In this document: in pieces, positions 1-18,279 of the stretch
Layout: each line of letters opens with the position of its first letter
Position numbering within the stretch: the stretch's first letter is position 1
Virus record (IMG/VR): IMGVR_UViG_3300036857_000088
Location: 1-56,185 of that record
Source of the DNA: a virus
Strand: one strand, 5' to 3'
DNA: 56,185 bases
Notes under the pieces: generated by a model
The model's database searches: none
What the model was told of the DNA's origin: nothing
What the model saw: only the letters and a program-made list of their open reading frames with translations
Translations under genes and position numbers: made by a program

Positions 1-503
1 CCGTGTACCTCGACTCGGTCGCGCGTCGCGAGAAATCGCACAACGCTGCTGTCGCTGGTGCTAAGGCACGGTGGAAGCGACAGCCCGAACCGGCGACCAC
101 CGCGCCCGCGACGCCGACTCCGATCGTCTCGCCGCCCGTCGACTTCACCGTCACGACCAAGAACTACCCGGCGGTCGAGCAGTTCGCGAACGACCGGACC
201 GAGTACCGCGCGACGCTCGACCGGGCGCTCACGCGCGTGCTCAAGGGGCTCGGCCCCGACAGTCTCGCCGGCTTTGCTGCCGTCGTTGGTGCCGCGCTTC
301 AAGGCATGGACGGCCCGCAGCTCTCGTTCGCCGAGATGCACACCGCGCTCGCCGATTGGTGCGACAACAACGGCAGGCTCGAAAAGAATGCGCTGCGCGC
401 CTACTGGCGCGGCGCGAAATCGAACGGCGCGAACGCGTCGAACGGTCGCACCTCCTTCCGCCGCCCGCCGTCGAATGGCGCGGGCGATCACTTCGGACTC
501 TAA
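1..503 (+). CDS. Hypothetical replication-operon protein, 3' part of a gene split by the window edge
   Basis: The reading frame is open from base 1 and ends at a TAA at 501-503. Joined to the fragment at 56110-56185 it gives one in-frame 192-aa protein (25 residues, one Thr codon across the junction, 166 residues). A basic segment (residues AKARWKRQP) and a Pro/Ala/Thr linker precede a compact C-terminal region. I do not recognise the family. Its position directly before a DnaC-like loader suggests a replication-initiation or loader-partner role, which is inference. GTG at 3 is a possible internal start only if the molecule is not circular. Confidence 0.7.
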   Translation, partial: VYLDSVARREKSHNAAVAGAKARWKRQPEPATTAPATPTPIVSPPVDFTVTTKNYPAVEQFANDRTEYRATLDRALTRVLKGLGPDSLAGFAAVVGAALQGMDGPQLSFAEMHTALADWCDNNGRLEKNALRAYWRGAKSNGANASNGRTSFRRPPSNGAGDHFGL

Positions 504-518
504 CCCCTGAACCACCCG

Positions 519-1409
519 ATGGAATCCCGAGACAAAGGCCAGCCCACGCACATCGGTGCCGCTATGACGCTCGAAAAGCGCACCGGCGAGTGTGGCAACT
601 GCCACCACGACCTATCGCAGACCAAGTGGGGCAACATCTGGATGCCGCTCTACTGCGAGCCGTGCTACGCGACGCTCGAAGCCGCGCGCGAGAACCAAGA
701 ACGCGCCGACAAAGAAGCCGAACGCCGCACGCGCGCGCTCGACTCGCTCGACATCCCGCTCCTGTACCAAGACGCCACGCTCGACACGTTCGAGATTGCC
801 CACCGGCTCACGACCGGCGACGCGCTCGCCATCCACGAACGCGCCCAGCAGATCGAGAAGCAGGCCCGCGTGCTCCAGCTCGCGCGCCGGTATCTCGGCT
901 TGTGGGAGGAGCGGCGCGACCGGGACAAGCGATTCGAGTTCCCGCATATCGCGATCTTCGCCGGCGAGCCCGGCACCGGCAAGGGCCACATCGCGTGGGC
1001 TATCGCGCGCGCGGTCGCAGTGTGCCACGGCGACACGGTGAAGTTCGCCGTGCTGTCGGACGCCATCCGCGACATTCGCGAGGCGTGGAAGCAACGCGCT
1101 GGCGAAGGCCCGAGCGAGCGCGCCCGGCTCGAAGCGTACCGCCGTCCCCAACTCCTCATCATCGACGAGGTGTCGAAGCACGCGTTCCACGGCGAGCCCT
1201 CGCAGCACTTGTACGACCTCGTGGCATGGCGCGAGCAACGGCTCCAGCCGACCATCATCACGACCAACGAGAAGTCGAAAGACCTCGCCTCGTTGCTCGG
1301 CCCCGCGCTCGTCAGCCGCGCGAAGGGCTGGGGCGGCGTGTGGGACTTCGGCGAGGCGGACTACCGCGTGCAGCGGCGCGAGGCGCGACGCGCAGAGAGG
1401 GCCGCATGA
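519..1409 (+). CDS. DnaC-like helicase loader ATPase
   Basis: 296 aa. A zinc-ribbon-like N-terminus (CGNC near residue 25 and a CEPC pair near 50) leads into an AAA+ core with Walker A GEPGTGKGH (residues 149-157, K155) and Walker B LLIIDE (212-217). A TTN sensor-like motif follows near 248. The layout fits IstB/DnaC-type loaders, which place replicative helicase on DNA. The window has no helicase or DNA polymerase gene, so host enzymes are probably recruited. ATG at 564 is an alternative start. The stop overlaps the next start (ATGA). Confidence 0.85.
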   Translation: MESRDKGQPTHIGAAMTLEKRTGECGNCHHDLSQTKWGNIWMPLYCEPCYATLEAARENQERADKEAERRTRALDSLDIPLLYQDATLDTFEIAHRLTTGDALAIHERAQQIEKQARVLQLARRYLGLWEERRDRDKRFEFPHIAIFAGEPGTGKGHIAWAIARAVAVCHGDTVKFAVLSDAIRDIREAWKQRAGEGPSERARLEAYRRPQLLIIDEVSKHAFHGEPSQHLYDLVAWREQRLQPTIITTNEKSKDLASLLGPALVSRAKGWGGVWDFGEADYRVQRREARRAERAA

Positions 1410-2035
1410 GCCTCCTCTCCACCGCCCGCATGAAACGCTGCGAGCATTGCGGCCACGCCACGCTCACCCGACCGGATGAAACGCCGGTCGGTGACAAGGT
1501 GCTCATGGCGATCACCAAAGACCTCGACGGTGCCCCGCACGACTGTTGGGAGTTCTTCGAGGCGCTGTTCGGCCCCGAGGTGATCGACTCCGCGAAGGCG
1601 CTCGCCCACAAGCTCGGCGTGACGCCGTCGACACTCACGTCGCGCTTTTGGCGCGCTGGGTTGCCGTCGCCGAAGATGTACGTCACGCACGCGCTCCTCG
1701 TCCGCGCCGCGCATCTGCTCGAGCAACCCGACCTGTCCGTGTCGCGCGTCGCGCTCGAGCTGCACCAATCGTCGGCGCAGTCGTTCACGCGCACCATCCG
1801 CACGTTCACCGGCCTCACCGCCGCGCAGTTCCGCAAAACCGTGAACGGCGACACCGCGCTCGACGTGTTCCGCCGCGAGCTGATTCTGCCGCACGTCGGC
1901 GCGCTCAAGGAGTTCCACCCGCTTCACGCCACCGAGCTGAACGCCGGCGGCGCCACCAAGCGCGAGACGGCCGCCGAGAAGTCGGCCCTCGCGTACGCCA
2001 ACCACATCCCCGATACCGGAGAAGCAGTCGCATGA
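1406..2035 (+). CDS. AraC-type HTH transcription regulator
   Basis: 209 aa, starting at an ATG that overlaps the loader stop. A CxxC pair sits at 12-15. Residues 61-90 (AKALAHKLGVTPSTLTSRF) and 110-143 (SVSRVALELHQSS ... FTGLTAAQF) match the two helix-turn-helix units of an AraC/XylS DNA-binding domain, including the Phe-x-Arg ending. No sensor domain is visible. Because it lies in the early replication operon, it is a candidate activator of the late (family A) promoters, whose -35 element departs from TTGACA. That role is inference. Confidence 0.7.
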   Translation: MSLLSTARMKRCEHCGHATLTRPDETPVGDKVLMAITKDLDGAPHDCWEFFEALFGPEVIDSAKALAHKLGVTPSTLTSRFWRAGLPSPKMYVTHALLVRAAHLLEQPDLSVSRVALELHQSSAQSFTRTIRTFTGLTAAQFRKTVNGDTALDVFRRELILPHVGALKEFHPLHATELNAGGATKRETAAEKSALAYANHIPDTGEAVA

Positions 2036-2496
2036 GGATACTGGAATTGATGCAGCCGAACGACAGCGGGCGCTCGCTCGTGCCCAACACCTCGCCGTGG
2101 CCCGATTACTACGGCGACGTGCGGCGGTTCAACATCGCCACGTCGGGCACCGAGCACGCCCGCGCGAGCGTCGGGTTCCCCGACAACCCGCAAGTCACCG
2201 AGACGCGGCTCAAGCTCATCGAGGAAGAAGTCACCGAGCTGCGCGAGGCGATCGAGGCGGGCGACATCGTCGAAGTGGCGGACGCGCTCGCCGACATCCT
2301 GTACGTCACCTTCGGCGCGTTCGCCGCGTTCGGGATCGACCCGGCCGACGTTCACCGCGAGGTGCATCGCTCGAACATGGCGAAGCTCGTCGACGGCAAG
2401 GTCATTCGCCGGGGCGACGGGAAGGTGCTCAAGCCCGAAGGCTGGACGCCGCCCGACATCGCCGCCGAGCTACGGAAGCAAGGCGCGGACGTGTAA
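2032..2496 (+). CDS. MazG/HisE-like NTP pyrophosphohydrolase
   Basis: 154 aa; ATGA overlap with the previous stop. Residues 58-118 form an all-alpha NTP-PPase (phosphoribosyl-ATP pyrophosphohydrolase-like) domain with metal-binding EExxE at 65-69 and ExxD...D at 81, 84 and 88. Such phage enzymes hydrolyse nucleoside triphosphates to monophosphates, in nucleotide-pool control or alarmone removal; the substrate cannot be read from sequence. It is followed by a coupled exonuclease gene. Confidence 0.8.
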   Translation: MRILELMQPNDSGRSLVPNTSPWPDYYGDVRRFNIATSGTEHARASVGFPDNPQVTETRLKLIEEEVTELREAIEAGDIVEVADALADILYVTFGAFAAFGIDPADVHREVHRSNMAKLVDGKVIRRGDGKVLKPEGWTPPDIAAELRKQGADV

Positions 2497-3248
2497 TGCT
2501 GCTCCTCGTCGACGGGTCCAATATCCTCATGCGTTGCGCGTTCGGCGGTGATACGCCGCCCGAACGCTCGACGCCGATCGCTGTCTCGCTCATCGAGCAC
2601 GCCGCGAACCAGCTCAAGGCGACCCATCTCGTCATCGCGATGGACTCGTCGACGGCGCCGTCGTGGCGGAAGCTCGAGTACGACGCGTACAAGGCCCACC
2701 GCAAAACCTCGACGGCGCCGTGGCTCACGTTCGGCCGCATGGCGTTCGCCGAGCGCGGGTGGCACATGGAGGAGCACGCCGGGTTCGAGGCCGACGACGT
2801 GCTCGCGACGATCGCCACGCGAGCGCCGGTCAACACCACGGTGCTGTCGAGCGACAGCGATTTGTTGCCGCTCGTGTCGCGCGGGATCACCGTTGTCCGC
2901 CCGATGCCGGGCGGCCAGCTCCGCGCGAAGTCGCCGGCCGACGTGACGGCGAAGTACGACATCCCCGCGCCGTCGCTGCTCGTCGATTGGAAGGCGATGG
3001 TGGGCGAGCCGGGCGATGGCGTGCCCGGCGTCCCCGGGATCGGCCCGCGTCGCGCGTCGACGCTCCTGAAAGTGTGGGGGCCGCTCGAGTCGATCATCAC
3101 CGCCGGCCAAGGCAACATGGACAAGCACTCGGCGATCGTCGCCGAGCATGCCGATGTGGCGCGACGCGCGCTCCGTCTCGTGACACTTCGCACCGACGCG
3201 CCGGTCCCCCCGATCACGCCCAAACTCTGCCGGCTGTTAGCCGGTTAG
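2496..3248 (+). CDS. 5'-3' exonuclease / flap endonuclease
   Basis: 250 aa; TAATG overlap. It has the PIN-like FEN fold motifs: D6 near the N-terminus, D50, YKAHR (66-70) in the arch region, EADD (98-101), DSD (120-122), and a helix-hairpin-helix with GVPGIGPRRA (178-188) after D174. This is the length and order of Pol I 5'-nuclease and T5-type FEN proteins, which remove RNA primers and flaps. It is the last gene of the replication operon. Confidence 0.9.
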   Translation: MLLLVDGSNILMRCAFGGDTPPERSTPIAVSLIEHAANQLKATHLVIAMDSSTAPSWRKLEYDAYKAHRKTSTAPWLTFGRMAFAERGWHMEEHAGFEADDVLATIATRAPVNTTVLSSDSDLLPLVSRGITVVRPMPGGQLRAKSPADVTAKYDIPAPSLLVDWKAMVGEPGDGVPGVPGIGPRRASTLLKVWGPLESIITAGQGNMDKHSAIVAEHADVARRALRLVTLRTDAPVPPITPKLCRLLAG

Positions 3249-3284
3249 CATGTTCTAATTTTCGCGTAAATTTTCCCCGATTTC

Positions 3285-3316
3285 CTGCTGACATCTGTTG
3301 CGCTCGGTGGTAGATA
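3285..3316 (+). promoter_or_regulatory. Family A promoter A1
   Basis: CTGCTGAC (3285-3292), 18 nt, then TAGATA (3311-3316). This is the same element and exact spacing seen at seven other sites. It drives the gene at 3358 and the RecU-like operon. The leader has no attenuator. Confidence 0.7.
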
Positions 3317-3357
3317 GTGCCCCATACGGAATACGCCTGTTCTCACCGAGCGCACAC

Positions 3358-3618
3358 ATGGACACCGACAAGAACGAGAACGTCGACCCGAAAGTCCGTC
3401 GCCTCCCACCCAAGCTGCCCGAGGGCGGCGTGTTCGTCGCAACGGACCGCGTGGTGAAGGGCGAGGACGGCAAGTGGATGCGTCAGCGATTCCAGCGCAT
3501 CAACCCGAGCCGCCGCGCCGCGAAGGAATTGGGCCTCACCGGCCGCCAGCTCAAGAAGCTCCGCCGCGCCGCCAACCGTGCCGCTCGCACGGCCACGTTA
3601 GATAACCCGGCCAAGTGA
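3358..3618 (+). CDS. Small basic hypothetical protein
   Basis: 86 aa, rich in Lys/Arg, with RRAAKELGLTGRQLKKLRRAANRAAR in the second half, which suggests nucleic-acid binding. The start at 3358 was chosen because it follows the leader ...ACCGAGCGCACACATG, which resembles other start contexts here; an ATG-like start at 3298 lies inside the promoter and is rejected. It is the first gene of the A1 operon. Confidence 0.6.
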   Translation: MDTDKNENVDPKVRRLPPKLPEGGVFVATDRVVKGEDGKWMRQRFQRINPSRRAAKELGLTGRQLKKLRRAANRAARTATLDNPAK

Positions 3619-4316
3619 CACGGCGCAGGAAAGCCGCCGCCGCGACGGTGCTCGACATCGCGCAGGGACGCGTTCCGAAGAAAGACCCGGGCGCGCAGCT
3701 CGCCGGCGCGCTCGCGCGCAAGTCCGGCATCGCACTCGAGGCGGCGCTCGCGCTCATCAACGATTGGTACGATAAGCACGGCGTCGCCGCCATCGAGAAG
3801 GTCAACCCGCCCGTGCATGGCTGGGGCGATTCGCTCCACGTGGGCGCGTCGACGGTCGACTACACCGGCACAATCAAGGTCATGCCGCCCCGGTACGAGG
3901 ACGCCGCGCTCCGTCGCGGCATCGCGTTCGACGCGAAGAAGGTGACGGGCGCCGCGTCGTTCGGCCTCGATCACGTTGGCGCCGGGAAGAACTACGCGAA
4001 GAACCGCATGCGCCTCGCGGCGCAGATCAACTATCTCCGTGGGCTCCGCGACCGCCACGGATACGTCGTCGGGTTCCTGCTCTACTGCGACGACCTTGAG
4101 ACGGCGTGGTGGATCGGCGCCGAGCATCTCGACGCGCTCGCACGAGGCGAATCGGTCGCGATCCGTACCAAACCCCGCGCGACGAAGGCCGATCCGACAC
4201 CCGCCGTCGTGCATCATCACCCGCACATCGCTGCTCCGCTCGACCGCGCCGCCATTCCGCAGATCGGAACGCGTCGCCCGTTGCTCGATTACCTCAGTCT
4301 CACCGTCCCGAGATGA
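3615..4316 (+). CDS. RecU-like Holliday-junction resolvase
   Basis: 233 aa, GTG start overlapping the previous TGA. Motifs match the RecU/PRFA endonuclease fold: VDYTG (D82), IAFDAKK (D106, K108), and HVGAGKNYAKNRMRLAAQINYL with Q137, followed by the YVVGFLLYC strand. RecU-type enzymes cleave four-way junctions, helping to resolve recombination or replication intermediates before packaging. Residues 1-75 are a phage-specific extension. Confidence 0.72.
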   Translation: MTRRRKAAAATVLDIAQGRVPKKDPGAQLAGALARKSGIALEAALALINDWYDKHGVAAIEKVNPPVHGWGDSLHVGASTVDYTGTIKVMPPRYEDAALRRGIAFDAKKVTGAASFGLDHVGAGKNYAKNRMRLAAQINYLRGLRDRHGYVVGFLLYCDDLETAWWIGAEHLDALARGESVAIRTKPRATKADPTPAVVHHHPHIAAPLDRAAIPQIGTRRPLLDYLSLTVPR

Positions 4317-4771
4317 CCGCACCGACTATGCAAAACCAAGGACTCTCGCTCGTCCGCGACGCGTCCGCCCGCTTCCACGGCTGGGCGTCGCTGCATGACA
4401 TGGTCTGCCCCCGTGGGCATCACATCCGCCAAGATGCGCTCGTGCTCGACCACGGCGCGATCCGATGCACCTGCCGCGATCCGCTCAACACCGGCGACGC
4501 CACCGGCCGCGCGCGACACGCCGCCGGGTTCGGCCCCGAGTGCGGCACGTGGCTCTACGTCATCGGCTCGCTGACGTGGAACGTCCACATCGACGAGAAC
4601 GGCACCGAGCACATCGAGGTCGGCGACAGCGTGTACGTCGCCGAGGTCACGCGCGCCGAGCTGACGCAGATACGCGCGCAGCGCATGTCGGTCGACAGGG
4701 TCGTCGCCTTCCTTGGCCTGCCGCGCTACACGTCGACGGGCCGCAACGGTCGAAAGCTGGGGGACAAATGA
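4313..4771 (+). CDS. Hypothetical protein with Cys/His-rich segment
   Basis: 152 aa; ATGA overlap with the resolvase. CPRGH, CTCRD and PECG segments between residues 25 and 80 suggest a metal site. An acidic beta-rich stretch (HIDENGTEHIEVGDSVYVAEV) follows. Not recognised. ATG at 4328 is an alternative start. Confidence 0.55.
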   Translation: MTAPTMQNQGLSLVRDASARFHGWASLHDMVCPRGHHIRQDALVLDHGAIRCTCRDPLNTGDATGRARHAAGFGPECGTWLYVIGSLTWNVHIDENGTEHIEVGDSVYVAEVTRAELTQIRAQRMSVDRVVAFLGLPRYTSTGRNGRKLGDK

Positions 4772-5070
4772 CAACGCGCATCGGGTGGCCGCTCATCTGG
4801 ACGCTCATCGGACTTCTCATCGTGCTGTGCGAAGGGATCGCGGTCGGTCAGGCGCGACCGGGCGACACGCTCAGTGAGACGATTCGGAACTTTGTCCGGT
4901 TCGACGCGATCGGGCGCTTGATCTTCTTGCCGCTGTGGTGCTGGCTGACGTGGCATTGGGTGCTTCGGCCTCAGCCCGACACGACGGCATCGTGGCGCGA
5001 CGTGGTCGCACTCGTGCTCGGGCTCGCGTGGGCGCTCGTCGAGCTGTGGAAATACCCGAAGGGTCTATAA
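4768..5070 (+). CDS. Small membrane protein
   Basis: 100 aa; ATGA overlap, with GGGGGAC upstream. Three hydrophobic segments are visible: roughly residues 6-25, 47-65 and 76-92. Last gene before the A2 promoter. Function unknown; it could be an auxiliary holin or an exclusion protein. Confidence 0.6.
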   Translation: MTTRIGWPLIWTLIGLLIVLCEGIAVGQARPGDTLSETIRNFVRFDAIGRLIFLPLWCWLTWHWVLRPQPDTTASWRDVVALVLGLAWALVELWKYPKGL

Positions 5071-5072
5071 TC

Positions 5073-5104
5073 CTGCTGACTCGTTCGTCCCGGCGCCCTA
5101 AATT
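5073..5104 (+). promoter_or_regulatory. Family A promoter A2
   Basis: CTGCTGAC (5073-5080), 18 nt, TAAATT (5099-5104). It sits directly after the membrane-protein stop and drives the modification cassette through an attenuated leader. Confidence 0.75.
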
Positions 5105-5108
5105 GCCC

Positions 5109-5127
5109 GGGACAACACAGTGACCGG
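5109..5127 (+). promoter_or_regulatory. Conserved leader box of family A operons
   Basis: GGGACAACACAGTGACCGG starts about where transcription should begin. Near-identical boxes occur at 8561, 23969 and 38024, each between a family A promoter and a terminator hairpin. Possible RNA or DNA target for an antiterminator (inference). Confidence 0.6.
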
Positions 5128-5133
5128 CCCCGG

Positions 5134-5179
5134 CCCCGCCTCGATGCGCCACGCGCTCGACGGCGGGGTTCGTCTTTTT
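5134..5179 (+). terminator. Leader terminator / attenuator
   Basis: Stem CCCCGCC (5134-5140) with GGCGGGG (5162-5168), then TTCGTCTTTTT. It lies between promoter A2 and the first start codon (5191), so it would block the operon unless regulated. Confidence 0.65.
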
Positions 5180-5190
5180 ACCCTGCGACC

Positions 5191-5805
5191 ATGACCGTTT
5201 CGAGCATTCCCTTTCGTTCGCCGCCCGTCACGTGGAACAATGGCCGGTACGACATCGCCATCGGCGTCGTCCCGGTCACGTGGCTTAAAGAGGCCGAGTA
5301 CAACCCGCGCACGATGTCGGACCAAGGCCGCGACGCACTCGAGCGAGGGCTCGACGCGTTCGGCATCGTCGACACGCTCATCGCCTGCGAGGACGGACAC
5401 CTCTTGGGCGGCCACCAGCGCCTCATCTCCGAGCGTCGCCGCGGCGCCATCGACGTGCCGGTGTTCGTCGTGTTCGGGCTCACGCTCGAGCAACGGCAGA
5501 CGGTCAACATCCTGCTGAACAACCCGAGCGCCCAAGGTCAGTGGGACTTGCCCAAGCTGACCGCGATCCTCTCCGAGCTGGACGCCAACGGGTTCGACGC
5601 GACGCTCACCGGGTTCACGCACGAGGAGCTGGCGAAGCTGTTGGGCCACGAAGGCCCGCAGATGGAGGAGCCGGGCGACGCCGACAGCGAAATCATCGAC
5701 GCGACCTTCGACGTGGTCGTGTCATGCGCGAGCGAGGCCGACCAGCGCGAGCTACTCGAGCGACTCACGGGGGAGGGGCTCAAATGCCGCGCGCTCACGT
5801 TGTAA
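5191..5805 (+). CDS. ParB-like nuclease-domain protein
   Basis: 204 aa. Residues 20-110 carry the ParB/Srx N-terminal fold: EYNPR (36-40), a helix with LERGLDAFGIVDTLI, then GHLLGGHQRL (69-78), and QRQTVNILLNNPSAQGQWDL. There is no HTH or dimerisation domain, so it is not a plasmid partition protein. Stand-alone ParB-fold proteins in phages often neighbour DNA-modifying genes. It overlaps the next gene by 22 nt and belongs to the A2 operon. Confidence 0.8.
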   Translation: MTVSSIPFRSPPVTWNNGRYDIAIGVVPVTWLKEAEYNPRTMSDQGRDALERGLDAFGIVDTLIACEDGHLLGGHQRLISERRRGAIDVPVFVVFGLTLEQRQTVNILLNNPSAQGQWDLPKLTAILSELDANGFDATLTGFTHEELAKLLGHEGPQMEEPGDADSEIIDATFDVVVSCASEADQRELLERLTGEGLKCRALTL

Positions 5806-6917
5806 GAACGTCGCCCGTCGTTCGGACGGGCCGCGTGCAGCAAGTCGAGGGCATGTTCGACGTGCCGCCGTCCGAGAAGTCGACCGTCGAGTGGGACGTG
5901 AACCTGCCGCTCGACGAGCAGCCGTGGCACGTGGGGCTCATCGTCGGGCCGTCCGGCTCGGGCAAGTCGACCGTCGCGCGCGAGCTGTTCGGCGGCGACA
6001 TGGTGGGCGCGCTCGAATGGCCGAGCGACCGCGCCATCATCGACGCGTTCCCGAGCGACATGGGGACGCGCGAGGTCGTGGCTGCGCTCAACTCGGTGGG
6101 CTTGGGCTCACCGCCGGCGTGGCTCCGCCCGTTTCACGTTCTCTCAAATGGCGAGCAGTTTCGGGCGACCGTCGCGCGAGCACTCGCCGAGCGCCGCGAC
6201 CGCATGACGGTCATCGACGAGTTCACGTCGGTCGTCGATCGCCGCGTGGCGCAGATCGGAAGCGCCGCCGTCGCCAAGGCGGTGCGTCGCGCCAACCAAC
6301 GGTTCGTCGCCGTCACGTGCCACTACGACGTGCTCGATTGGCTCCAGCCGGATTGGGTGTTCGAGCCCCACGCCAACAGCTTCGCTTGGAGGTCGGTTCA
6401 ACCCCGCCCCAAGCTCAGTCTCGAGGTCCGTCGGGTCGATCGCGCCGCATGGCGCGTGTTTAAGCACCATCACTATCTGAGCGGCGAGTTGCTCGCGAGC
6501 GCGAAGTGCTACGGCGGGTTCATCGACGACCAGTGCGTCGCGTTCGCCGCCGTGCGCGTGTTCCCGCACGCGCATCGCACCAACATCATCATGGGCCACC
6601 GGCTCGTCGTCCAGCCCGATTGGCAGGGGTTAGGGATCGGTGGCCGCATCGACGACGCGCTCGGCGCGTTCCTGTATCAACGCGGGTGGGCGTACCACAA
6701 CGTCGTCGCGCACCCCGCGATGAAAGCCTACTACTCGCGGTCGCCGCGGTGGAAGCTCCACTCCGCGTCGGTCAAGCCGTCGACGGGCCGACGCTCGACG
6801 ATTTCGCTCGGCAAGTCGAACAACGACCCGCGCAAGCTCTCCACGTCCACGTTCGTGTATGTGCCGCCTGCTGGCACGCCGCGCCCGACCGAGCGCGTGC
6901 CGTATGCGACGCTCTAA
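5784..6917 (+). CDS. ABC-ATPase fused to GNAT acyltransferase domain (Mom-like candidate)
   Basis: 377 aa. The N-terminal ABC-type ATPase has Walker A GPSGSGKST (55-63), signature-like LSNGE (120-124), Walker B MTVIDE (141-146) and an H-loop His180. The C-terminal GNAT domain (about 213-330) begins FKHHHYLSG (227-234), has the acyl-CoA pyrophosphate loop QGLGIGGR (281-288), then HPAM and SRSPRWK (318-324). The HHYLxG start recalls phage Mu Mom, a GNAT-fold DNA adenine modifier; this similarity is from memory. ATPase-GNAT fusions next to ParB genes recur in phages. No membrane segment, so it is not a transporter. Confidence 0.75.
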   Translation: MPRAHVVRTSPVVRTGRVQQVEGMFDVPPSEKSTVEWDVNLPLDEQPWHVGLIVGPSGSGKSTVARELFGGDMVGALEWPSDRAIIDAFPSDMGTREVVAALNSVGLGSPPAWLRPFHVLSNGEQFRATVARALAERRDRMTVIDEFTSVVDRRVAQIGSAAVAKAVRRANQRFVAVTCHYDVLDWLQPDWVFEPHANSFAWRSVQPRPKLSLEVRRVDRAAWRVFKHHHYLSGELLASAKCYGGFIDDQCVAFAAVRVFPHAHRTNIIMGHRLVVQPDWQGLGIGGRIDDALGAFLYQRGWAYHNVVAHPAMKAYYSRSPRWKLHSASVKPSTGRRSTISLGKSNNDPRKLSTSTFVYVPPAGTPRPTERVPYATL

Positions 6918-6928
6918 CCCATAGGCCG

Positions 6929-7303
6929 ATGAAAACCTTTGTCAGCTCGAAAATCCACGGCATCCGCGTCACGGACAAAGCGGTCCGCTATCACGGCTCG
7001 GTGTCGATCTGCCCGCACCTCATGCGGCGCGCCAACATTCAGGAATACGAACAGGTCCACCTCGTGAACCTGACGAACGGCGAGCGTTGGATCACGTACG
7101 CGATCCCGGCCGAAAGCGTCGGCGCGTTCACGCTGAACGGCGGCGGTGCTCGGCGCGGTGAAATCGGCGACGAGTTCGTCATCATGGCCTACGAGACGAC
7201 CGAGCACTACGTGCCGGCGCGCGTCGTTCACACCGACGACCAGAACAACATCCGCCGCGAGTTCGACTACATCGCCGGCGAGTCGGGACCGCGCGAGGGC
7301 TAG
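6929..7303 (+). CDS. panD: Aspartate 1-decarboxylase (PanD)
   Basis: 124 aa, the normal length of PanD. Every hallmark is present: K8 in SSKIH, Y21-H-G-S24 at the self-cleavage site (Gly23-Ser24 gives the pyruvoyl group), NGERWITYAI with R53 and Y57, NGGGA at 70-74, and GDEFVIMAY. PanD turns L-aspartate into beta-alanine, a CoA precursor. Start ATG at 6929, 11 nt after the GNAT stop. A phage copy beside a CoA-transferase and a CoA-dependent acyltransferase suggests beta-alanine is made for that cassette; boosting host CoA is the alternative. Maturation in some bacteria needs a GNAT protein (PanZ), so help from the adjacent GNAT domain is possible. Confidence 0.9.
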   Translation: MKTFVSSKIHGIRVTDKAVRYHGSVSICPHLMRRANIQEYEQVHLVNLTNGERWITYAIPAESVGAFTLNGGGARRGEIGDEFVIMAYETTEHYVPARVVHTDDQNNIRREFDYIAGESGPREG

Positions 7304-7304
7304 C

Positions 7305-8024
7305 GTGAGTCTCCGCGTTCTCGAGCTGGGCAACTACGTCGCGCCCGCGTATGCGGGCATGATCCTCGCCGAGCAGGGCGCCGAGGTGGTGAAGTGGACG
7401 GCTACGGGCCGCGATCCCATCCTCACGCTCAAGAAGGGCCGCGAGCTGTGGGCGTGGATCAACCACAAGAAGCGCCTGTTCGACGTTCACCCGCGCACGC
7501 TCGTCGAGCGCCCGTGGGGGCCGATGTCGCCCGACATCATCATCGACAACTTCCGCCCGTCGACGCTCGCCAAATGGGGCATCGACCCGGCCGCGCTCGC
7601 GAAGCAGCACGGTGTCGTGTGGGTGTCACTCCGATCGGAAGTCGGCGAGGTGTCGTTCGACATCCTCGCGCAGCATCGGGCGTGGCGTCACATCGCGCCG
7701 TGGATGCCGTTCTATATCGGTGACACTGCCGCGGGCCTCTGGCTCGCCTTCAAGGCGCTCGCGATGCTCGACCGAGGCCGATACGGGCATTACCCGATCG
7801 GTCACGCCACGTCGCTCGCCAAGCTCGTCGAGGGAGAGCTGGTCGTCGATCGGCCGACGCCAAGCTCCCCCGATCAAGTCGCGTGGGATTGCGACCGCTA
7901 CGGCGTTTCTGGCGACGAGGCGATCGTCGAGTACGGCGACGAGTGGTTCGTCGAACCAGCGCGACATGCTGCGTGGCAGCGCACGCACCTGTGGCACGAC
8001 GGCACCGGGCGCATGACGATCTAG
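7305..8024 (+). CDS. Short class III (CaiB/BaiF-type) CoA-transferase
   Basis: 239 aa, GTG start. The N-terminus VLELGNYVAPAYAGMILAEQGAEVVKW is typical of the family. IIIDNFRP (78-84) follows, then a strand and FDILAQ (118-123), where D119 sits at the usual catalytic Asp position, and FYIGDTAAGLWLA (137-148). Full family members have about 400 residues; this one lacks much of the small domain, yet keeps the active-site region and ends in a neat stop next to the convergent ASCH gene. It would move CoA between carboxylic acids. Acceptor unknown; beta-alanine from PanD is a natural guess. Confidence 0.75.
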   Translation: MSLRVLELGNYVAPAYAGMILAEQGAEVVKWTATGRDPILTLKKGRELWAWINHKKRLFDVHPRTLVERPWGPMSPDIIIDNFRPSTLAKWGIDPAALAKQHGVVWVSLRSEVGEVSFDILAQHRAWRHIAPWMPFYIGDTAAGLWLAFKALAMLDRGRYGHYPIGHATSLAKLVEGELVVDRPTPSSPDQVAWDCDRYGVSGDEAIVEYGDEWFVEPARHAAWQRTHLWHDGTGRMTI

Positions 8025-8491
8025 TCGGCGACCAACGTCGCGAAGCGAAGCGCAAGCGCGAACCGCAGGATTCCCGGCACCGACCAAAGTCCCTGTGCGC
8101 CGCCGACGAGCGCCGCCGGATCAACGCGCCGCACGTCGCCCAAGCGCCACGCGTACCGCGACCCGTTGAAGTCGCAATACTGCCACTGCGCCATACGCTC
8201 GCGCAGATCAATCTCGTCGGCCTCGAGCACGTCGATGACCGACGCCACGGCGATGATGGCGCCGAACGCCAGCTCCGCCGGGTCGATGTCGAGCTGGGAG
8301 CAGGCCATGCGCTCGGCGACGCCGAAGCCGCGCCCCGCGTGGATCGCGAGCGGGCCGCGGTAATGCGTCGACCACGAGCGCGACTCGAGCCACTTGCGGC
8401 CGGTGGCGATGCAGTGAGCCCACGGCTGACGGACGGTCAAAGCGTGCGTGGGGAACGCTGGAGGAGGAAGTGGTTGCATGTGACGCAACAT
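8021..8491 (-). CDS. ASCH-domain protein
   Basis: 156 aa (152 if the second ATG is used). LTVRQPWAHCIATGRKWLESRSW, THYRGPLAIHAG and a beta core ending in RRVDP are typical ASCH (PUA-like) features. ASCH domains bind RNA or other nucleic acids, and some process nucleosides. It is the only minus-strand gene in the left half and converges on the modification cassette (4-nt overlap), so it may be expressed at a different time. I see no strong promoter upstream. A reader or anti-defence role is speculation. Confidence 0.8.
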   Translation of the reverse strand: MLRHMQPLPPPAFPTHALTVRQPWAHCIATGRKWLESRSWSTHYRGPLAIHAGRGFGVAERMACSQLDIDPAELAFGAIIAVASVIDVLEADEIDLRERMAQWQYCDFNGSRYAWRLGDVRRVDPAALVGGAQGLWSVPGILRFALALRFATLVAD

Positions 8492-8525
8492 ATGGATTCC
8501 GGCGCACGCGTCAATTTCGATCTTC

Positions 8526-8557
8526 CTGCTGACCCGGGCGCGTCGACCGCGTAGATT
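8526..8557 (+). promoter_or_regulatory. Family A promoter A3
   Basis: CTGCTGAC (8526-8533), 18 nt, TAGATT (8552-8557). Drives the appendage-protein cluster through an attenuated leader. Confidence 0.75.
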
Positions 8558-8560
8558 GTC

Positions 8561-8580
8561 GGGGACAACTCAGTGACCGA
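8561..8580 (+). promoter_or_regulatory. Conserved leader box of family A operons
   Basis: GGGGACAACTCAGTGACCGA, matching the box at 5109 except at a few positions. Confidence 0.6.
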
Positions 8581-8584
8581 TTCC

Positions 8585-8622
8585 GGCCCGTTGCCGCTCC
8601 CCGAGCGGCCGCGGGCCTTTTT
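8585..8622 (+). terminator. Strong leader terminator / attenuator
   Basis: Outer stem GGCCCG (8585-8590) with CGGGCC (8612-8617), inner stem GCCGCTC (8593-8599) with GAGCGGC (8603-8609), then TTTTT. It stands 24 nt before the first start codon. Confidence 0.8.
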
Positions 8623-8646
8623 CGTCTCCCCTCCCCTCCCCCGCCA

Positions 8647-9384
8647 ATGTCTATCGTCTCGTCGGACCTTCAGTTCTTTTCCGTCGCGAGCGTGCCGACC
8701 GATGACGTTTCCACGTCCGGCGGCGCGATCGACACCACGTCCCGAGCTGCTCTGACGCAGCTCACCGCCAACGCCGCCATCGCGGTCGTGTCGGACGGCG
8801 CGGACACCCGGACCGTGACGGTGCGCGGTCGACTCACCACGGGCGCGATCGACACCGAAGTGCTCACGCTCAACGGCACCACCGAGGTGCTCGGCGCCAA
8901 GACGTGGGAGCGCGTGCTCTCGCTGACGGCGTCCGCCACGAGCGGCACGCGGACGATCACGTGCAAGCAGGGTTCGGGCGGCTCGACGGTCGCGACGATC
9001 GTCCCGAACGAAACCAAGCGCCACATCCAGTTTCAGGGCGCCAGCTCGGGCGCGTCGCCGAGCACTCGCTACGAGAAGCAGTTCGCCAAGAACGGCAACG
9101 GCACGTTGTCGTTGCTGGGCGCGCAGATCACGCTCACGGCAGACCCGGCGAGCAAGATCAAGATTGGGTGCGAGGCCGCCGTCGGTGGCACGACGAGCGT
9201 GGCGAACCGCCTCACGGCGCCCGCGTCGGTGACGTTCGTCGACGACAACGTCGCGATCGGCGTCCCGGGCACCGACCTCGCCGCCGGCGCCGCGTGCCCC
9301 GTGTGGGTGCAACAGTCGCTCGCCGCGAACGACGGCGCGCAAAAGTCGACGTTCACGTTGCAGCTCGCCGGCACCACGGTCTAA
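8647..9384 (+). CDS. Putative virion protein
   Basis: 245 aa, rich in Thr, Ser, Ala and Gly, with alternating beta-like strands (RTVTVRGRLTTGAIDTEVLTLNG). Low charge and composition match tail or appendage proteins. First gene of the A3 operon. The exact role is not recognised. Confidence 0.55.
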   Translation: MSIVSSDLQFFSVASVPTDDVSTSGGAIDTTSRAALTQLTANAAIAVVSDGADTRTVTVRGRLTTGAIDTEVLTLNGTTEVLGAKTWERVLSLTASATSGTRTITCKQGSGGSTVATIVPNETKRHIQFQGASSGASPSTRYEKQFAKNGNGTLSLLGAQITLTADPASKIKIGCEAAVGGTTSVANRLTAPASVTFVDDNVAIGVPGTDLAAGAACPVWVQQSLAANDGAQKSTFTLQLAGTTV

Positions 9385-9668
9385 TGACCCGCGCCGACGC
9401 AGAACAGACGATCCGCGCGACGACGCGCACGTGCCGCGGGCCGATCGAGCCCGAGGCCGCGCGCGTGCGCGACGCGCTCCTCGAGGACGGCCGTGTGGAT
9501 GAAGCGGCCGACGAGGACAAGGCCGGCCGCGCTCGCGGATGCGGCGCCGACTTCAACGACATCGTGTGCGCCGGTCCGCTCGACGGCTCGACGTGCACGT
9601 ACACGTGCCCCCGCTGTGGCGTCACGGGCGAGTACATCGCGCCGTGCTTCACCCTTGGACCGAGCTAA
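9384..9668 (+). CDS. Small zinc-ribbon-like protein
   Basis: 94 aa, start overlapping the previous TAA. The acidic helical N-terminus precedes Cys residues at CGADFNDIVC and CTYTCPRCG, consistent with a C-terminal zinc ribbon. Function unknown. Confidence 0.55.
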   Translation: MTRADAEQTIRATTRTCRGPIEPEAARVRDALLEDGRVDEAADEDKAGRARGCGADFNDIVCAGPLDGSTCTYTCPRCGVTGEYIAPCFTLGPS

Positions 9669-9673
9669 CTCTC

Positions 9674-10117
9674 ATGCCAGTTTACACGATTGAATCCGGT
9701 AACATCTCGCTCGCGGCCGGCACGGCGCTGACGGCGTTGCAGCTCACCACGCCGTCCACGCGCCGCGGCGAATTGATCGAGCTGGGCATTTCGTTCTCGG
9801 ACACGACCGCGACGGACGCGCCCGGGCTCATCGAGCTGCGCACGCAGTCGACGGCGGGCACGTCGTCGTCGTTCACGCCCTCGCCGGACGATCCGGCCGA
9901 GCCGGCGTCGCTGTGCACGGCGCGCAACACGTTCACCGCGGAGCCGACCGACGTGGCGCTCATGTACCCCGGCCCGTGGCGACTGACGCCGGTGGGCGGA
10001 CTGTTCGTGTACCAGTTCGACGGCAAAAAGATTCCCATTTCGACGAGCGTCGGCGTTCGACTGACCTACCCCAACAACCAGTCGAACGTCCGCGTGTACC
10101 TCAAGTTCAAAGAGTAG
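9674..10117 (+). CDS. Putative virion-associated protein
   Basis: 147 aa, beta-rich, beginning MPVYTIESGNISLAAGTALTALQL; no charged clusters. It probably forms a small jelly-roll or decoration protein. It sits between appendage-type genes in the same operon. Confidence 0.5.
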   Translation: MPVYTIESGNISLAAGTALTALQLTTPSTRRGELIELGISFSDTTATDAPGLIELRTQSTAGTSSSFTPSPDDPAEPASLCTARNTFTAEPTDVALMYPGPWRLTPVGGLFVYQFDGKKIPISTSVGVRLTYPNNQSNVRVYLKFKE

Positions 10118-10121
10118 TCCC

Positions 10122-10811
10122 GTGCCTCGTCGGGGCATTCTGACGCGGTCGCGGTTCGGTGCCTCCGCGACCGCGCCGGCTCTCCGCACGTTCAACGCCA
10201 GTCTGTCGTCGGGCACGGAAAACCCGTTGTCCGAGGGCGGCGTTTGGGTCAACGGCGGAACCGTTGGCGGTAGTTGGTACAACTTCCGCAAAAGCGGCGG
10301 CAAGTGCTGGGGCTTGCAAGTTCTCGACGAGCGCGACGCCACCGCGCTCGTTGCCGGCGGCACGTGGGCGACCACCCCGTGGTCGAACCGGCAGTACGCG
10401 ACGGCCACGGTCTACATCGACGGCAACCCTTCGGCGTACTTGCCCGAACTCGAGCTACGGCTCCGCTCGAACATTTCATCGGGCTTTAATAACGGTTATG
10501 AAATCGACTGGCCGATCGCCGGCGGGTTGCAAATCGTCCGGTGGAACGGCGGCGCCGGGTCGTACAACATCCTTCAAGGTGGCTACTCGTCGCCCGCGTT
10601 CACGACCGGCGACGTGGTGTATGCGGAAATCGTTGGCAACATCATCACGGCGAAGGTGAACGGCACGACCGTCGCCACGCTCGACGTATCGCTGTTCGAC
10701 GGCTCCGTCATCGCGAACGGCTCGCCGGGCATGGGCCACAATCACGTCGGCGCGATCGACGGCAGCGAAGCCTTGTACGGCTTTACCGCGTTCGCGGCGG
10801 GCGAGTTATGA
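10122..10811 (+). CDS. Lectin-like (concanavalin-type fold) virion protein
   Basis: 229 aa, GTG start. Its strand pattern (YATATVYIDG, LELRLRSN, GYEIDW, VVYAEIVGNIITAKVNGTTVATLDVS) is that of LamG/concanavalin-like sugar-binding domains. Likely a receptor- or surface-binding appendage. A family relationship to the next gene is plausible from the pattern. Confidence 0.55.
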   Translation: MPRRGILTRSRFGASATAPALRTFNASLSSGTENPLSEGGVWVNGGTVGGSWYNFRKSGGKCWGLQVLDERDATALVAGGTWATTPWSNRQYATATVYIDGNPSAYLPELELRLRSNISSGFNNGYEIDWPIAGGLQIVRWNGGAGSYNILQGGYSSPAFTTGDVVYAEIVGNIITAKVNGTTVATLDVSLFDGSVIANGSPGMGHNHVGAIDGSEALYGFTAFAAGEL

Positions 10812-11653
10812 GCATGCGAATGGGCGGCGCCGCGCGCTCGCGGTTCGGGTACTCGCTCGCCTTGCCCTCGAGCGGTGAGCCAACGCCGAGCGGCACGATT
10901 CTGTTCGACATGCGCGCCGGCGGCGCTCAAGACCTGCAAGCGATGACCACGACGGCGCAGGTTGACGCCGCGTTCACGGCCACGGGTGGCGACTTCAATG
11001 ATTCGCAAAACCTCTGCACGACCGCCATTGACCTGAACTACAACGGGAGCGGGAAGCACGCGATCCGGTTCGACTGGTTGCAGAACCTGTCAGGCAGTGG
11101 GCCGACAGGTACAGACAGCACGACGCTCACCTACTTCCACACCCCCGGCCCGCCGAGTAATCCGTTCTGCTTCTCATACATCGGCCATCTCGGCAAGACG
11201 CCGACCGGCGGCGGGCTGGGAAGCGTTGGCGTTTTCAATCCCGTGGATTTCACGGGCGGCAAAAAGCAAGTGCTGTTCTATCGCGCCAACGATGATGGAA
11301 CCGACCGGCTGTACTTGGTCTGGCCGGCACAAGACCCGGCCGACCAAAACTTCACGTGGTCGATCGACGGAAGAAACTTTAATGACGAATTTCTAGGGAT
11401 CGACTTCGGTGTCGGCGTCGACGTGCGCTGGACGTACCGTCTCACGGCCGCGTCAAGTTCGTCGGCGTCTGACGGCAAAATCGAAGTGTGGCGGAACGGC
11501 GTGAAGGTGATCGACGAGCAACACGCGGCCGGTGGCAGTCCGAACGGCATCGGGAATCTCGGCTTTCAGCAAGTCGAACTCTGCACGACTCGCCGTCGTG
11601 TGTTGCAAGACGAGTCGGAGTACATGACGGACCTCGTCGCGTGGAAGCCGTAG
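10808..11653 (+). CDS. Lectin-like virion protein
   Basis: 281 aa; ATGA overlap. It contains ILFDMRAGG, an Asn/Gly-rich core, and strands such as WTYRLTAASSSSASDGKIEVWRNG(V)KV, again the pattern of LamG-type beta sandwiches. Part of the appendage cluster upstream of terminase, an unusual place for adhesins. Confidence 0.5.
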   Translation: MSMRMGGAARSRFGYSLALPSSGEPTPSGTILFDMRAGGAQDLQAMTTTAQVDAAFTATGGDFNDSQNLCTTAIDLNYNGSGKHAIRFDWLQNLSGSGPTGTDSTTLTYFHTPGPPSNPFCFSYIGHLGKTPTGGGLGSVGVFNPVDFTGGKKQVLFYRANDDGTDRLYLVWPAQDPADQNFTWSIDGRNFNDEFLGIDFGVGVDVRWTYRLTAASSSSASDGKIEVWRNGVKVIDEQHAAGGSPNGIGNLGFQQVELCTTRRRVLQDESEYMTDLVAWKP

Positions 11654-11654
11654 C

Positions 11655-13802
11655 ATGAGTCTGCCCGTCATTATCCAGACCGTAACCCCCACGCCCGCGG
11701 ACGGCCAGCCGTCCCTGTCGTTCACGTTCACGAGCGTCGCGGTCGGCCACCGCATCGTCATTGCCGCGCAACGGTTCGACAATGGCAATGACGTAGCGCT
11801 CGTCTTGGGAGACTGCACGAAAACGGGGGGCACGGCCACTCTCGGCCCAATCTCGTTGGACGTGGGCGCGCACACCCCCACGACGAACCCCTGTCAGGCC
11901 GCCGTCTGGTCCGTGTTGGTGACCGGCGCCGGCTCGCTCACCATGCAAGTCGCTGGCAACCACACCAACGACTTCTTTATGGCCACGGGGTACGAGGTGA
12001 GCAGCCTGGATGGGACGCTCGCCGTTGTCGGCACGCCGAGCAGCAATTTCGCCACGACGGGCACCTCGCCTGCCACCTCTGGCAACACGACGCCGGGCGT
12101 TGATGCCCTGCTCATCGCCGCGGTGGCGACCGATCTGGACGCGACGCTGTCGGTGGCCATGGGCAACGGGTTCACGCAGGACTATGCCGTTACCGACGCG
12201 AGTACACACCAAACGGGTTCGACGGGTCACCTCTTACAGAGTGGCGGCGCGGCTATTGGCGGTTCATGGACACTCAGCGGCACCGGGTTCCGCGGCTGGG
12301 CGGCCGTCGTCGTCGCATACGGCGTCGCGGGCGGCGGCGGTGGCGGCGGATCGTCCGCGCCGCCGCGTAAGCCGACGCAAGTCAAGCGCGTGCGCCGAAG
12401 GGCGGCGCCGCGGAAGGCGCCCACGCTGTTGTTCGCCGTGGCGCCGTCCCTCAACATCGTGTCGGCGACCAGCTCGAGCCCGACCGAGTCGCTCGCGTCC
12501 GGCGTTGCCGGGTCGCGGACGATCGCGACCGAGTCCATCGCGGCCGGCATTGTTAGCGCGAGCGTGAGCGCCACCGAGTCGGTGGTGTCAGGCATCACCG
12601 CATCGACGGCGAGCCCGCACGAATTGCTCGCGTCGGCCGTCGCCACGACGACGCTGGCAACCGAGTCGCTCGCCGGACCAGTCGGCACGATCGCGCCGGC
12701 CACCGAATCGCTCGCGCTCGCGTCGTTCGCGCTCGTGACGCCGCACGAGTGGACTATGTCCATTGCCGGCACCGTCGCGTCGCCGACCGAGTCAACGCTC
12801 GGCGTCGCCGGCACCGAAGTCGCGCCGTGGGAAGCCGGCGGCACCACGGTCGCGCCGTTCAAGCCGGTGCACCAAGTCAAGCGCAAGCCACGCAAGGCGC
12901 CGCGCAAGCCGACCCTCGTGTTGTTCACGCTCGTGCCCGCGAACGCGACGGTGTCGGCGACCAGCTCGAGCGCGTACGAGTGGACCGCGCCGATCGTCAC
13001 CGTCGCACGCCCGAGCCCCACCGAGTCGCTCGGTCCGTCCGCGCTCGCCACCGTCACGTCGGCCACCGAGTCGCTCGCACGAGCGGCCGGCACGGCCACG
13101 TCGCCCGACGAGTCGGTGCTCGGCGTCAACGCGCTCGAGCTGTCGCCGCACGAGTCGACCGCGCCGTCGAACGCGGTGTCGGGCTCCGAGGTCACGCCGT
13201 TCGAGTCGGTCGGGCCGATCGCGAACGCCGTTGCGGCGCCGACCGAGTCGGTGTCATCGGCAAGCGCCACCACGATCGCGCCGGACGAGTCGATCGCGTC
13301 GCCCATCGGCACGAGCGACACCGCGACCGAGTCGCTGTCGTTGCCGGCGGGTGCCACCGTCACGCCGTTCGAGTCGACCGCGTCGTCGACTGGCGGGGTG
13401 GCCGGGTCTGTCGTCACGCCGTTCGAGGTGCTCACGCCCACGGCTGGCGCGCTCGCGATCCCGAGCGAGTCGGCCAGTCAGCTCGCCGGCGCGAACGTCA
13501 CGGCGTTCGATTCGCTCGCGAGCATCGCAGGGGCGACGACCGGCGCGCACGAGTCGATTGGCCGCACGATGGCCGCCGCCGCGAGCGCCACCGAGTCGCT
13601 TGGCGGTGTCCGGTCGCCCGCGTTCGTGTCGGCCATGGAATGGCTCGGCCGCATGACGGCGACGATCGTCGGCGCGTTCGAGCTACCGCCGCCGCCGTCC
13701 ACGCAAATCATGCGCGCGCTCGCCGTGCGCGTACTCACCCGCGGCGTCTACGTCCGCACCCTCACGCGACCCGTGCGCTTGCACAACATCACCGAGGTGT
13801 AA
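11655..13802 (+). CDS. Large repetitive virion or surface protein
   Basis: 715 aa. Residues 1-225 form a beta-rich domain ending in a Gly run (GGGGGGG). Residues from about 230 to 680 consist of two modules, each opened by a very basic segment (QVKRVRRRAAPRKAP and QVKRKPRKAPRKP) and then many degenerate repeats of about 15-16 residues built on T-E-S-(L/I/V)-x. The basic C-terminus (VLTRGVYVRTLTRPVRL) closes it. Length variation by repeat gain or loss is expected. Role inferred from position: appendage or fibre. Confidence 0.6.
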   Translation: MSLPVIIQTVTPTPADGQPSLSFTFTSVAVGHRIVIAAQRFDNGNDVALVLGDCTKTGGTATLGPISLDVGAHTPTTNPCQAAVWSVLVTGAGSLTMQVAGNHTNDFFMATGYEVSSLDGTLAVVGTPSSNFATTGTSPATSGNTTPGVDALLIAAVATDLDATLSVAMGNGFTQDYAVTDASTHQTGSTGHLLQSGGAAIGGSWTLSGTGFRGWAAVVVAYGVAGGGGGGGSSAPPRKPTQVKRVRRRAAPRKAPTLLFAVAPSLNIVSATSSSPTESLASGVAGSRTIATESIAAGIVSASVSATESVVSGITASTASPHELLASAVATTTLATESLAGPVGTIAPATESLALASFALVTPHEWTMSIAGTVASPTESTLGVAGTEVAPWEAGGTTVAPFKPVHQVKRKPRKAPRKPTLVLFTLVPANATVSATSSSAYEWTAPIVTVARPSPTESLGPSALATVTSATESLARAAGTATSPDESVLGVNALELSPHESTAPSNAVSGSEVTPFESVGPIANAVAAPTESVSSASATTIAPDESIASPIGTSDTATESLSLPAGATVTPFESTASSTGGVAGSVVTPFEVLTPTAGALAIPSESASQLAGANVTAFDSLASIAGATTGAHESIGRTMAAAASATESLGGVRSPAFVSAMEWLGRMTATIVGAFELPPPPSTQIMRALAVRVLTRGVYVRTLTRPVRLHNITEV

Positions 13803-13813
13803 CGAGGTTCCCC

Positions 13814-14176
13814 ATGGCAAAGCCGGTCATTTCCCCGCTCAACGACTTGGACCTCGAGGTGCGGCTCGAGGCCATCGGCAACGATGGCAAGCCGGTGCCG
13901 CTCACGTCCGGCCCGGTCGGCGCGTTCGTCGCGCTCGACAAGACCTCGACCACGCCGCCGGCCGACGCGTCGCTCGTCGCCACGTGCACGTACACCGGCG
14001 CCAAGGGCAAGTGGAAGCTCAGTTTTGCCGGCAGCTCGTTCCAGCCCGCGCTCTTGGCTACGCTGTTTGGCGGTGTGGGCGCGCCGGCGCCGGTCATCAT
14101 CATCGAGGTGCCGCAAAGCGTCCGCCGGTACATCGAGTGCACGTACGCCGACGCGGCGCCGGCCGTCGTCGAGTAG
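13814..14176 (+). CDS. Hypothetical virion-associated protein
   Basis: 120 aa, beta-rich, starting MAKPVISPLNDLDLEVRLEAIGNDG. Composition like a small Ig-like or adaptor protein. Last gene of the A3 operon. Confidence 0.5.
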   Translation: MAKPVISPLNDLDLEVRLEAIGNDGKPVPLTSGPVGAFVALDKTSTTPPADASLVATCTYTGAKGKWKLSFAGSSFQPALLATLFGGVGAPAPVIIIEVPQSVRRYIECTYADAAPAVVE

Positions 14177-14221
14177 GCCGCGTGCCGCGGACGTTCCGTT
14201 GCACGCAATACTGTGACTTTG

Positions 14222-14253
14222 CTGCTGACATCCGCGTGCCGCGGCGTTTCATT
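14222..14253 (+). promoter_or_regulatory. Family A promoter A4 (weaker -10)
   Basis: CTGCTGAC (14222-14229), 18 nt, TTCATT (14248-14253). No leader box or terminator follows. Drives the nucleotidase-to-terminase operon. Confidence 0.55.
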
Positions 14254-14311
14254 GCGGGGGCGGATTTCAGCATTCCCTAAACCGTCACACCCGAACCCGA
14301 CACCGAGACGC

Positions 14312-15367: not shown

Positions 15368-15528
15368 AGCGAGTCAAGCATCGCGTCGGCCAGCTCGTGC
15401 TCGTCGCCGTCGCCACCGCGCTCGTCCCGCCGTTCCTCGCGTTCGGCATGCTCGTTGGCGTTGGTCGCGCCGTGGTCAGCACGATGGGCGACTACATCGA
15501 CGCGGTCACCCTCGTCCTCCGAAGCTGA
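15364..15528 (+). CDS. Small single-pass membrane protein
   Basis: 54 aa; ATGA overlap. Basic N-terminus (MKRVKHR) then a hydrophobic stretch of about 25 residues. Unknown. Confidence 0.5.
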   Translation: MKRVKHRVGQLVLVAVATALVPPFLAFGMLVGVGRAVVSTMGDYIDAVTLVLRS

Positions 15529-15532
15529 TCCG

Positions 15533-15664
15533 ATGCGCTGCCTCTGCGATCCCGACCGCCCGTGCAAGACGTGCCGTCAGGCGGAAACTATTGCGTGGTG
15601 CGTCATGGCCGCCGGCATCATGCTCGGGCTCGGGCTCGCGCTGTTGATCCACGGAGTCGGGTGA
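15533..15664 (+). CDS. Small Cys-rich membrane protein
   Basis: 43 aa. Four Cys in CLCDPDRPCKTC suggest a metal knuckle, followed by one membrane helix (AAGIMLGLGLALLIHG). Its TGA overlaps the next ATG. Unknown. Confidence 0.5.
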   Translation: MRCLCDPDRPCKTCRQAETIAWCVMAAGIMLGLGLALLIHGVG

Positions 15665-16203: not shown

Positions 16204-16221
16204 CCTCCACCGAGACGCACC

Positions 16222-16473: not shown

Positions 16474-16477
16474 CGCC

Positions 16478-16783: not shown

Positions 16784-16786
16784 CGC

Positions 16787-18070: not shown

Positions 18071-18101
18071 GTGGGAAGAAACGCCGACGGCGTTCCCACT
18101 T
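18069..18101 (+). terminator. Bidirectional terminator between convergent genes
   Basis: AAGTGGGAA (18069-18077) pairs with TTCCCACTT (18093-18101), with an inner CGCCG/CGGCG stem. It overlaps the stop codons of both flanking genes. The U-tract is weak on both strands. Confidence 0.6.
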
Positions 18102-18273: not shown

Positions 18274-18279
18274 GCAATC

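Follow-up and report, generated by a model that had tools for sequence, protein, structure and literature searches.

The window analysed here, the whole 56,185 bases of IMG/VR record IMGVR_UViG_3300036857_000088, encodes a terminase, portal, major head protein, tape measure and integrase, and is therefore assigned to a tailed, probably temperate phage. Between positions 5191 and 8024 lie four close-packed genes, read in one direction, whose products are, head to tail, a ParB-like protein, a fusion of an ABC ATPase with a GNAT acyltransferase (ABC-GNAT), a PanD-like decarboxylase and a CaiB-like coenzyme A (CoA)-transferase. The original prediction, made from the sequence of the window, had named these as adjacent genes and proposed that they form a cassette for acyl-type modification of DNA; the gene assignments are borne out by Pfam and PHROG matches. 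The four genes and the one that abuts them are as follows.

5191..5805, + strand: ParB/Srx-fold protein of 204 aa, probable DNA-targeting partner (PHROG)
5802..6917, + strand: ABC ATPase-GNAT acyltransferase fusion; GTG start, overlapping the ParB stop (phrog_11143, Pfam)
6929..7303, + strand: PanD-like pyruvoyl aspartate decarboxylase (Pfam Asp_decarbox)
7305..8024, + strand: short class III (CaiB-type) CoA-transferase, N-terminal part only; GTG start (CoA_transf_3)
8021..8491, - strand: ASCH-domain protein, an associated gene; convergent, with a 4-base overlap with the CaiB stop (phrog_3193)

The ABC-GNAT protein matched phrog_11143 in PHROG (7e-105), and both halves of the fusion that characterizes this family were recognized by Pfam (ABC_tran, 3.4e-06; GNAT families, 2e-05 to 6e-05). 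Walker A (GPSGSGKS), the ABC signature (LSNGE), Walker B (IDE), H174 and the GNAT CoA loop (QGLGIG, conforming to QGxGxG) are all kept, and when the full-length AlphaFold2 model (predicted local distance difference test, pLDDT, 86) was searched with Foldseek, the best 50 matches were all ABC ATPases. A homologue with the same fusion, 33% identical (E 2e-48), is encoded by the Tenacibaculum phage pT24. Proteins of this kind have already been predicted by the Aravind group to acylate a DNA base, as stated in PMC7824862, which has pT24 as an example, and the predicted ABC-GNAT systems resemble the window in that many relatives have a ParB-like neighbour. That text, as far as it is available, mentions neither PanD nor a CoA-transferase, whereas the window has both; most relatives lack the two alongside.

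It is the ParB-like partner and its surroundings that point to DNA as the target. In the PHROG search this protein matched phrog_620 (1.8e-31) and the ParB part of the phrog_498 DNA methyltransferases (5.5e-29), many relatives in phages belong to genes for adenine-specific DNA methyltransferases, of which they form a part, and in most related loci the ParB gene lies directly 5' of ABC-GNAT. Among Arthrobacter phages, one syntenic slot behind a homologous ParB gene is taken by Mom in Wyborn and by ABC-GNAT in EastWest (identities of 67% for the upstream gene, 62% over 118 residues for ParB, 71% for the helix-turn-helix protein and 54% for the clamp); the same slot is filled by an annotated Mom in Zartrosa and an acetyltransferase in Timinator, and has small open reading frames (ORFs) or nothing in Jawnski and Abba. 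ParB–Mom gene pairs (Wyborn, Zartrosa) thus exist, and they share their genomic slot and partner with ParB–ABC-GNAT pairs (EastWest). Kinship with Mom at the level of the protein is another matter. The original prediction had likened the start of the GNAT domain, HHYLxG, to that of Mu Mom; the string is present (HHHYLSGELL), with HYS as its counterpart in Mu Mom, but no significant match to a Mom profile was obtained, since a hidden Markov model of ABC-GNAT gave -2.5 bits against Mu Mom, hhalign a probability of 36%, and the Mom family PF25680 was absent from the Pfam hits. Mu Mom (PF25680; PDB 8bv8) is, as the window GNAT is predicted to be, a GNAT fold acting on DNA and opening with an HY(L)S string, but it has no ABC ATPase domain and, in the Mom loci examined, no PanD or CaiB neighbour, whereas the window cassette has all three. 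Taken with the ParB evidence, the shared slot makes it very probable that the ABC-GNAT cassette is a DNA modification system.

The two remaining genes would supply the group to be transferred. The PanD-like protein scored 106.2 bits against Pfam Asp_decarbox (1.2e-30; gathering score 25) and has the Gly-Ser self-processing site and the active-site Lys, Arg, Thr, Tyr and Asn of that enzyme; Lys9, Gly24-Ser25, Arg54, Thr57, Tyr58 and Asn72 (E. coli numbering) are kept in essentially all intact cassette PanDs. The CaiB-like protein matched CoA_transf_3 (8.8e-14) over profile positions 4-179 of 366, i.e. the first half only. In an alignment with Frc and CaiB of E. coli, its D139 occupies the position of their catalytic D169; 20 homologues show no variation at this residue, in the KLVEGEL stretch or in the NxR of the NFRP motif. 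An AlphaFold model (pLDDT 82) matches class III enzymes over ~200 residues, Rv3272 being the best Foldseek match (E 7.6e-09). Of the features of class III enzymes, the catalytic aspartate and the CoA-binding N-terminal half are therefore present, and full length with the small domain is not: the protein shares the N-terminal Rossmann half and the Asp169 equivalent with Frc, CaiB and Rv3272, but at ~240 aa, against ~400 aa for known class III enzymes, it has no small domain or C-terminal part. Formation of beta-alanyl-CoA from beta-alanine by a CoA-transferase acting after PanD is known chemistry from engineered E. coli (PMC13042692), where the cascade runs from aspartate through beta-alanine to beta-alanyl-CoA as in the route proposed for the window. 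There the CoA-transferase is of 42 kDa and the product goes on to acrylate, whereas the window route would lead to DNA; the likeness drawn here is one of pathway.

No close DNA relative of the window phage was found among phage records by whole-phage megablast, and single-protein scans of viral contigs with the window PanD and CaiB found nothing. By tblastn, Jace, an isolated phage of Rhodococcus, was found to encode ABC-GNAT, PanD and CaiB proteins at 48-53% identity, its genes running ParB (gp85), ABC-GNAT (gp86), PanD (gp87) and CaiB (gp88); the Jace paper gives no DNA-modification role for gp85-88 (PMC13313380). Some dozen further loci, viral or prophage, share this order, with protein identities of ~50%. 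Profile scans located the short CaiB in 13 viral and 10 bacterial loci (the loci bear L numbers below), and a later scan added two module-bearing lineages, L133 and the L147 group. ParB and ABC-GNAT precede CaiB wherever the contig reaches far enough (the L092, L096 and L097 loci end at contig ends), and PanD lies between in most; in L102 it is upstream instead, and in L099 it is missing from the locus, a cassette-type PanD being encoded elsewhere in the genome. The gene set is no accident, because its order recurs in Jace and these other loci. The original prediction had been staked on PanD and the CoA-transferase not being absent from all related cassettes, and the two genes, hereafter the module, are indeed present in Jace and in many viral or prophage loci. 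Some loci hold further genes: a LAGLIDADG homing-endonuclease gene lies between ABC-GNAT and CaiB in L099 (7016-7987), and a gene for a GNAT-only protein between ParB and the full ABC-GNAT in L094 (6278-6901).

The strongest evidence that the GNAT domain uses what PanD and CaiB make is that its residues covary with the module. When 13 ABC-GNATs with the module (L094, which has CaiB and no PanD, being counted on this side) were compared with 23 without it, a frequency difference of at least 0.8 was seen in five of 168 GNAT columns and in none of 203 ABC columns. The signature residues are G265, N300 and Y311 in window numbering, and at these positions the window protein differs from ABC-GNAT relatives that lack the module. 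In the AlphaFold2 model, G265 lies in the strand before the CoA loop, N300 in the next strand and Y311 in the helix after it. These are the elements in which the acyl pocket of GNATs is generally formed, and Y311 stands where, as we read it, GNATs usually have the motif-B tyrosine. The pair N300 and Y311 is present in all 12 intact-module loci of this set and in none of the 23 others; an out-of-sample scan found the pair in both new module-bearing lineages and in 0 of 53 module-less loci holding at least 1.3 kb downstream, so that for the pooled sets the counts are 14 of 14 and 0 of 76. The first ABC-GNAT of L147, which adjoins PanD, carries the signature. As regards descent, module-bearing proteins fall in more than one clade of the ABC-GNAT tree, and within one supported clade of ten, only two of the 210 four-row choices separate the GNAT columns equally well, and the other one of these is a true clade. 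From this covariation, the GNAT domain probably does use the product of PanD and CaiB. A contig resembling L147 (L153, 3-3092) has ABC-GNAT, PanD and CaiB followed by a second ABC-GNAT without the signature.

The short CaiB also occurs without ABC-GNAT, in three actinobacterial chromosomes, where it follows a pyridoxal phosphate-dependent decarboxylase and precedes an aldehyde dehydrogenase. In these loci a glutamate decarboxylase (GAD)-type gene, the short CaiB gene and an aminobutyraldehyde-dehydrogenase-like gene span the following positions.

L100, 6739-10141: Actinopolyspora
L101, 6558-10188: Promicromonospora
L103, 1260-4905: Actinobacteria bacterium OK074

The decarboxylase belongs to PF00282 in L100 and L103; its best NCBIfam match is glutamate decarboxylase (279-355 bits; cut-off 380), and that of the L100 and L103 dehydrogenases is aminobutyraldehyde dehydrogenase (586 bits; cut-off 615). 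To judge from these matches, PanD, the GAD-type decarboxylase and the aminobutyraldehyde-dehydrogenase-like enzymes would all make omega-amino acids, either beta-alanine or gamma-aminobutyric acid (GABA), and the position of the short CaiB beside producers of two unrelated kinds suggests an omega-amino acid as its acceptor. The operons are rare, no second short CaiB being found outside the seed genome in 395 actinobacterial genomes, and this gene set is possibly an unrecognised omega-aminoacyl-CoA route.

The pathway put forward in the original prediction thus gains support, since the covariation in GNAT, the replacement of PanD by a GAD-type enzyme and the exchange of Mom for ABC-GNAT behind ParB all fit it. 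Our current working hypothesis is that PanD would decarboxylate L-aspartate to beta-alanine, that the short CaiB would move CoA from a host acyl-CoA onto beta-alanine, and that GNAT would transfer the beta-alanyl group of the resulting beta-alanyl-CoA to an exocyclic amine of a DNA base, the fused ABC ATPase driving or positioning the GNAT domain and the ParB-like protein directing it. Mom modifies adenine, and because the relatives of the ParB-like protein are parts of adenine methyltransferases, adenine N6 would be favoured over cytosine N4 as the target. The likely benefit would be protection of phage DNA from host nucleases. Glycyl-CoA, of which beta-alanyl-CoA is a homologue, is named as an example donor for Mom in the available text of PMC7824862. 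Gene order, conservation, catalytic residues and the coevolution of GNAT with the module are observations; substrates, direction of the pathway, DNA product and biological role we infer. Beta-alanyl is fairly likely to be the transferred group, and we incline to accept the whole chain, in which an ABC-GNAT DNA acyltransferase is supplied by beta-alanyl-CoA synthesis encoded in the phage.

Several observations weigh against this reading. At 75.5 bits the window PanD falls under the NCBIfam equivalog cut-off of 106 (TIGR00223), and most cassette PanDs have NGGG instead of NGAA in the pocket, so that another substrate is possible; the CaiB-like protein ends ~200 residues short of known class III enzymes at the C-terminus, and CoA transfer by it is therefore not assured; L094 has CaiB and the GNAT signature, with no PanD in its 87-kb contig; L105 has the module genes and no signature, PanD and CaiB both being frameshifted there, which may reflect decay or an error of the metagenome-assembled genome; and the residue covariation is partly confounded by descent. 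The same architecture might accordingly carry another group, either because PanD acts on a different acid (e.g. glutamate, with GABA as the product, or some related amino acid) or because the product rearranges as in Mom to an isomeric N-(carbamoylethyl) base. The NGGG pocket speaks for such a variant and the GAD-type and aminobutyraldehyde-dehydrogenase-like partners of CaiB point equally to GABA; moreover, the carbamoylmethyl group that Mom produces is an isomer of a glycyl amide. All known aspartate-binding residues of PanD are kept, however, and planctomycete cassette PanDs have the ordinary NGAA pocket, and we consider a different group unlikely. That the short CaiB is a CoA-binding carrier or regulator, with host enzymes making the donor, would explain the missing C-terminal small domain and scores far from the cut-offs of the NCBIfam equivalogs, but it sits poorly with invariance of the catalytic Asp, the NxR of NFRP and KLVEGEL in 20 sequences, and with the linkage of the short CaiB to decarboxylases in two unrelated settings; we hold it to be improbable.

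PanD feeds CoA synthesis in bacteria, and phage records with PanD outside such cassettes exist, so that PanD might be an auxiliary metabolic gene raising pantothenate and CoA in the infected cell, with ABC-GNAT using an ordinary acyl-CoA on DNA and CaiB having no connection with ABC-GNAT. Yet distant phages keep PanD and the short CaiB together and in company with ABC-GNAT, GNAT residues vary with the two, and another decarboxylase replaces PanD beside the same CaiB, all of which makes this explanation very improbable. Just as improbable is the proposal that ABC-GNAT aminoacylates a protein, such as host RNA polymerase or a nuclease, and that ParB has some other role: acetylation of host RNA polymerase by phage GNATs has a precedent (Rac, PMC7824862), but the partners and relatives of the ParB-like protein are DNA-modifying, the genomic slot is common to Mom, and the same text predicts that the family acts on DNA bases.

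The beta-alanyl-CoA pathway that we favour would matter for several reasons. DNA modifications are a main route by which phages escape restriction and a source of new enzymes; cases where the acyl donor, too, is synthesized by virus-encoded enzymes are, to our knowledge, few. A base that carried a basic aminoacyl group would gain a primary amine and a positive charge, useful for labelling and informative for studies of defence. We found no paper in the open literature that connects phage DNA modification with either PanD or a CoA-transferase. We lean slightly towards the view that the cassette makes DNA bearing an omega-aminoacyl group (beta-alanyl or GABA-type) from a dedicated virus-encoded acyl-CoA pathway, a modification and a supply route of which no earlier description was found. 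Until now the ABC-GNAT family has been a predicted one with no acyl group assigned to it. The PanD/CaiB variant points to one particular donor, and because Jace, an isolated and sequenced temperate phage, carries it, ABC-GNAT function is directly testable.

The convergent ASCH gene may read or regulate the modification. Its product matched phrog_3193 (3.9e-30), with Pfam ASCH just under cut-off (0.00094). In a first set of 100 loci, which includes a few copies of the same contig, an ASCH gene lay within 4 kb downstream of ABC-GNAT in 26 and upstream in none; in a second set of 48, it was downstream in 10 and upstream in four. A YqfB-like deacylase was considered and rejected: the PDB matches are to TTHA0113 and ASC-1 and not to YqfB, the position of whose nucleophile lies in KxxTxR (PMC6972931), and that motif is apparently not kept in the window protein, which reads KWLESR by eye. 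For these reasons we claim no eraser role for ASCH. L082 likewise has an ASCH gene (11193-11663) running towards the cassette, that of Jace overlaps gp89, which carries a helix-turn-helix annotation, and L005, a sister of Jace, has a membrane-type ORF between ABC-GNAT and ASCH and no PanD or CaiB there.

The suggestion that the cassette is expressed late, from a promoter designated A2 and in the manner of mom, is not supported. The promoter-like repeat TTCCGTCNGACGCAATANATTGA has no copy in positions 1-18277, only chance-level matches occur near the cassette, and a sigma-70 scan gave nothing in front of 5191. The 11 copies of this repeat, several of them in intergenic gaps, lie between 18278 and 55698 of the window, against an expectation of 0 from shuffles. 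Elsewhere in the window, a long ORF (11655-13802) contains degenerate short repeats at 12459-13600, with (T/F)ES motifs recurring in their translation.

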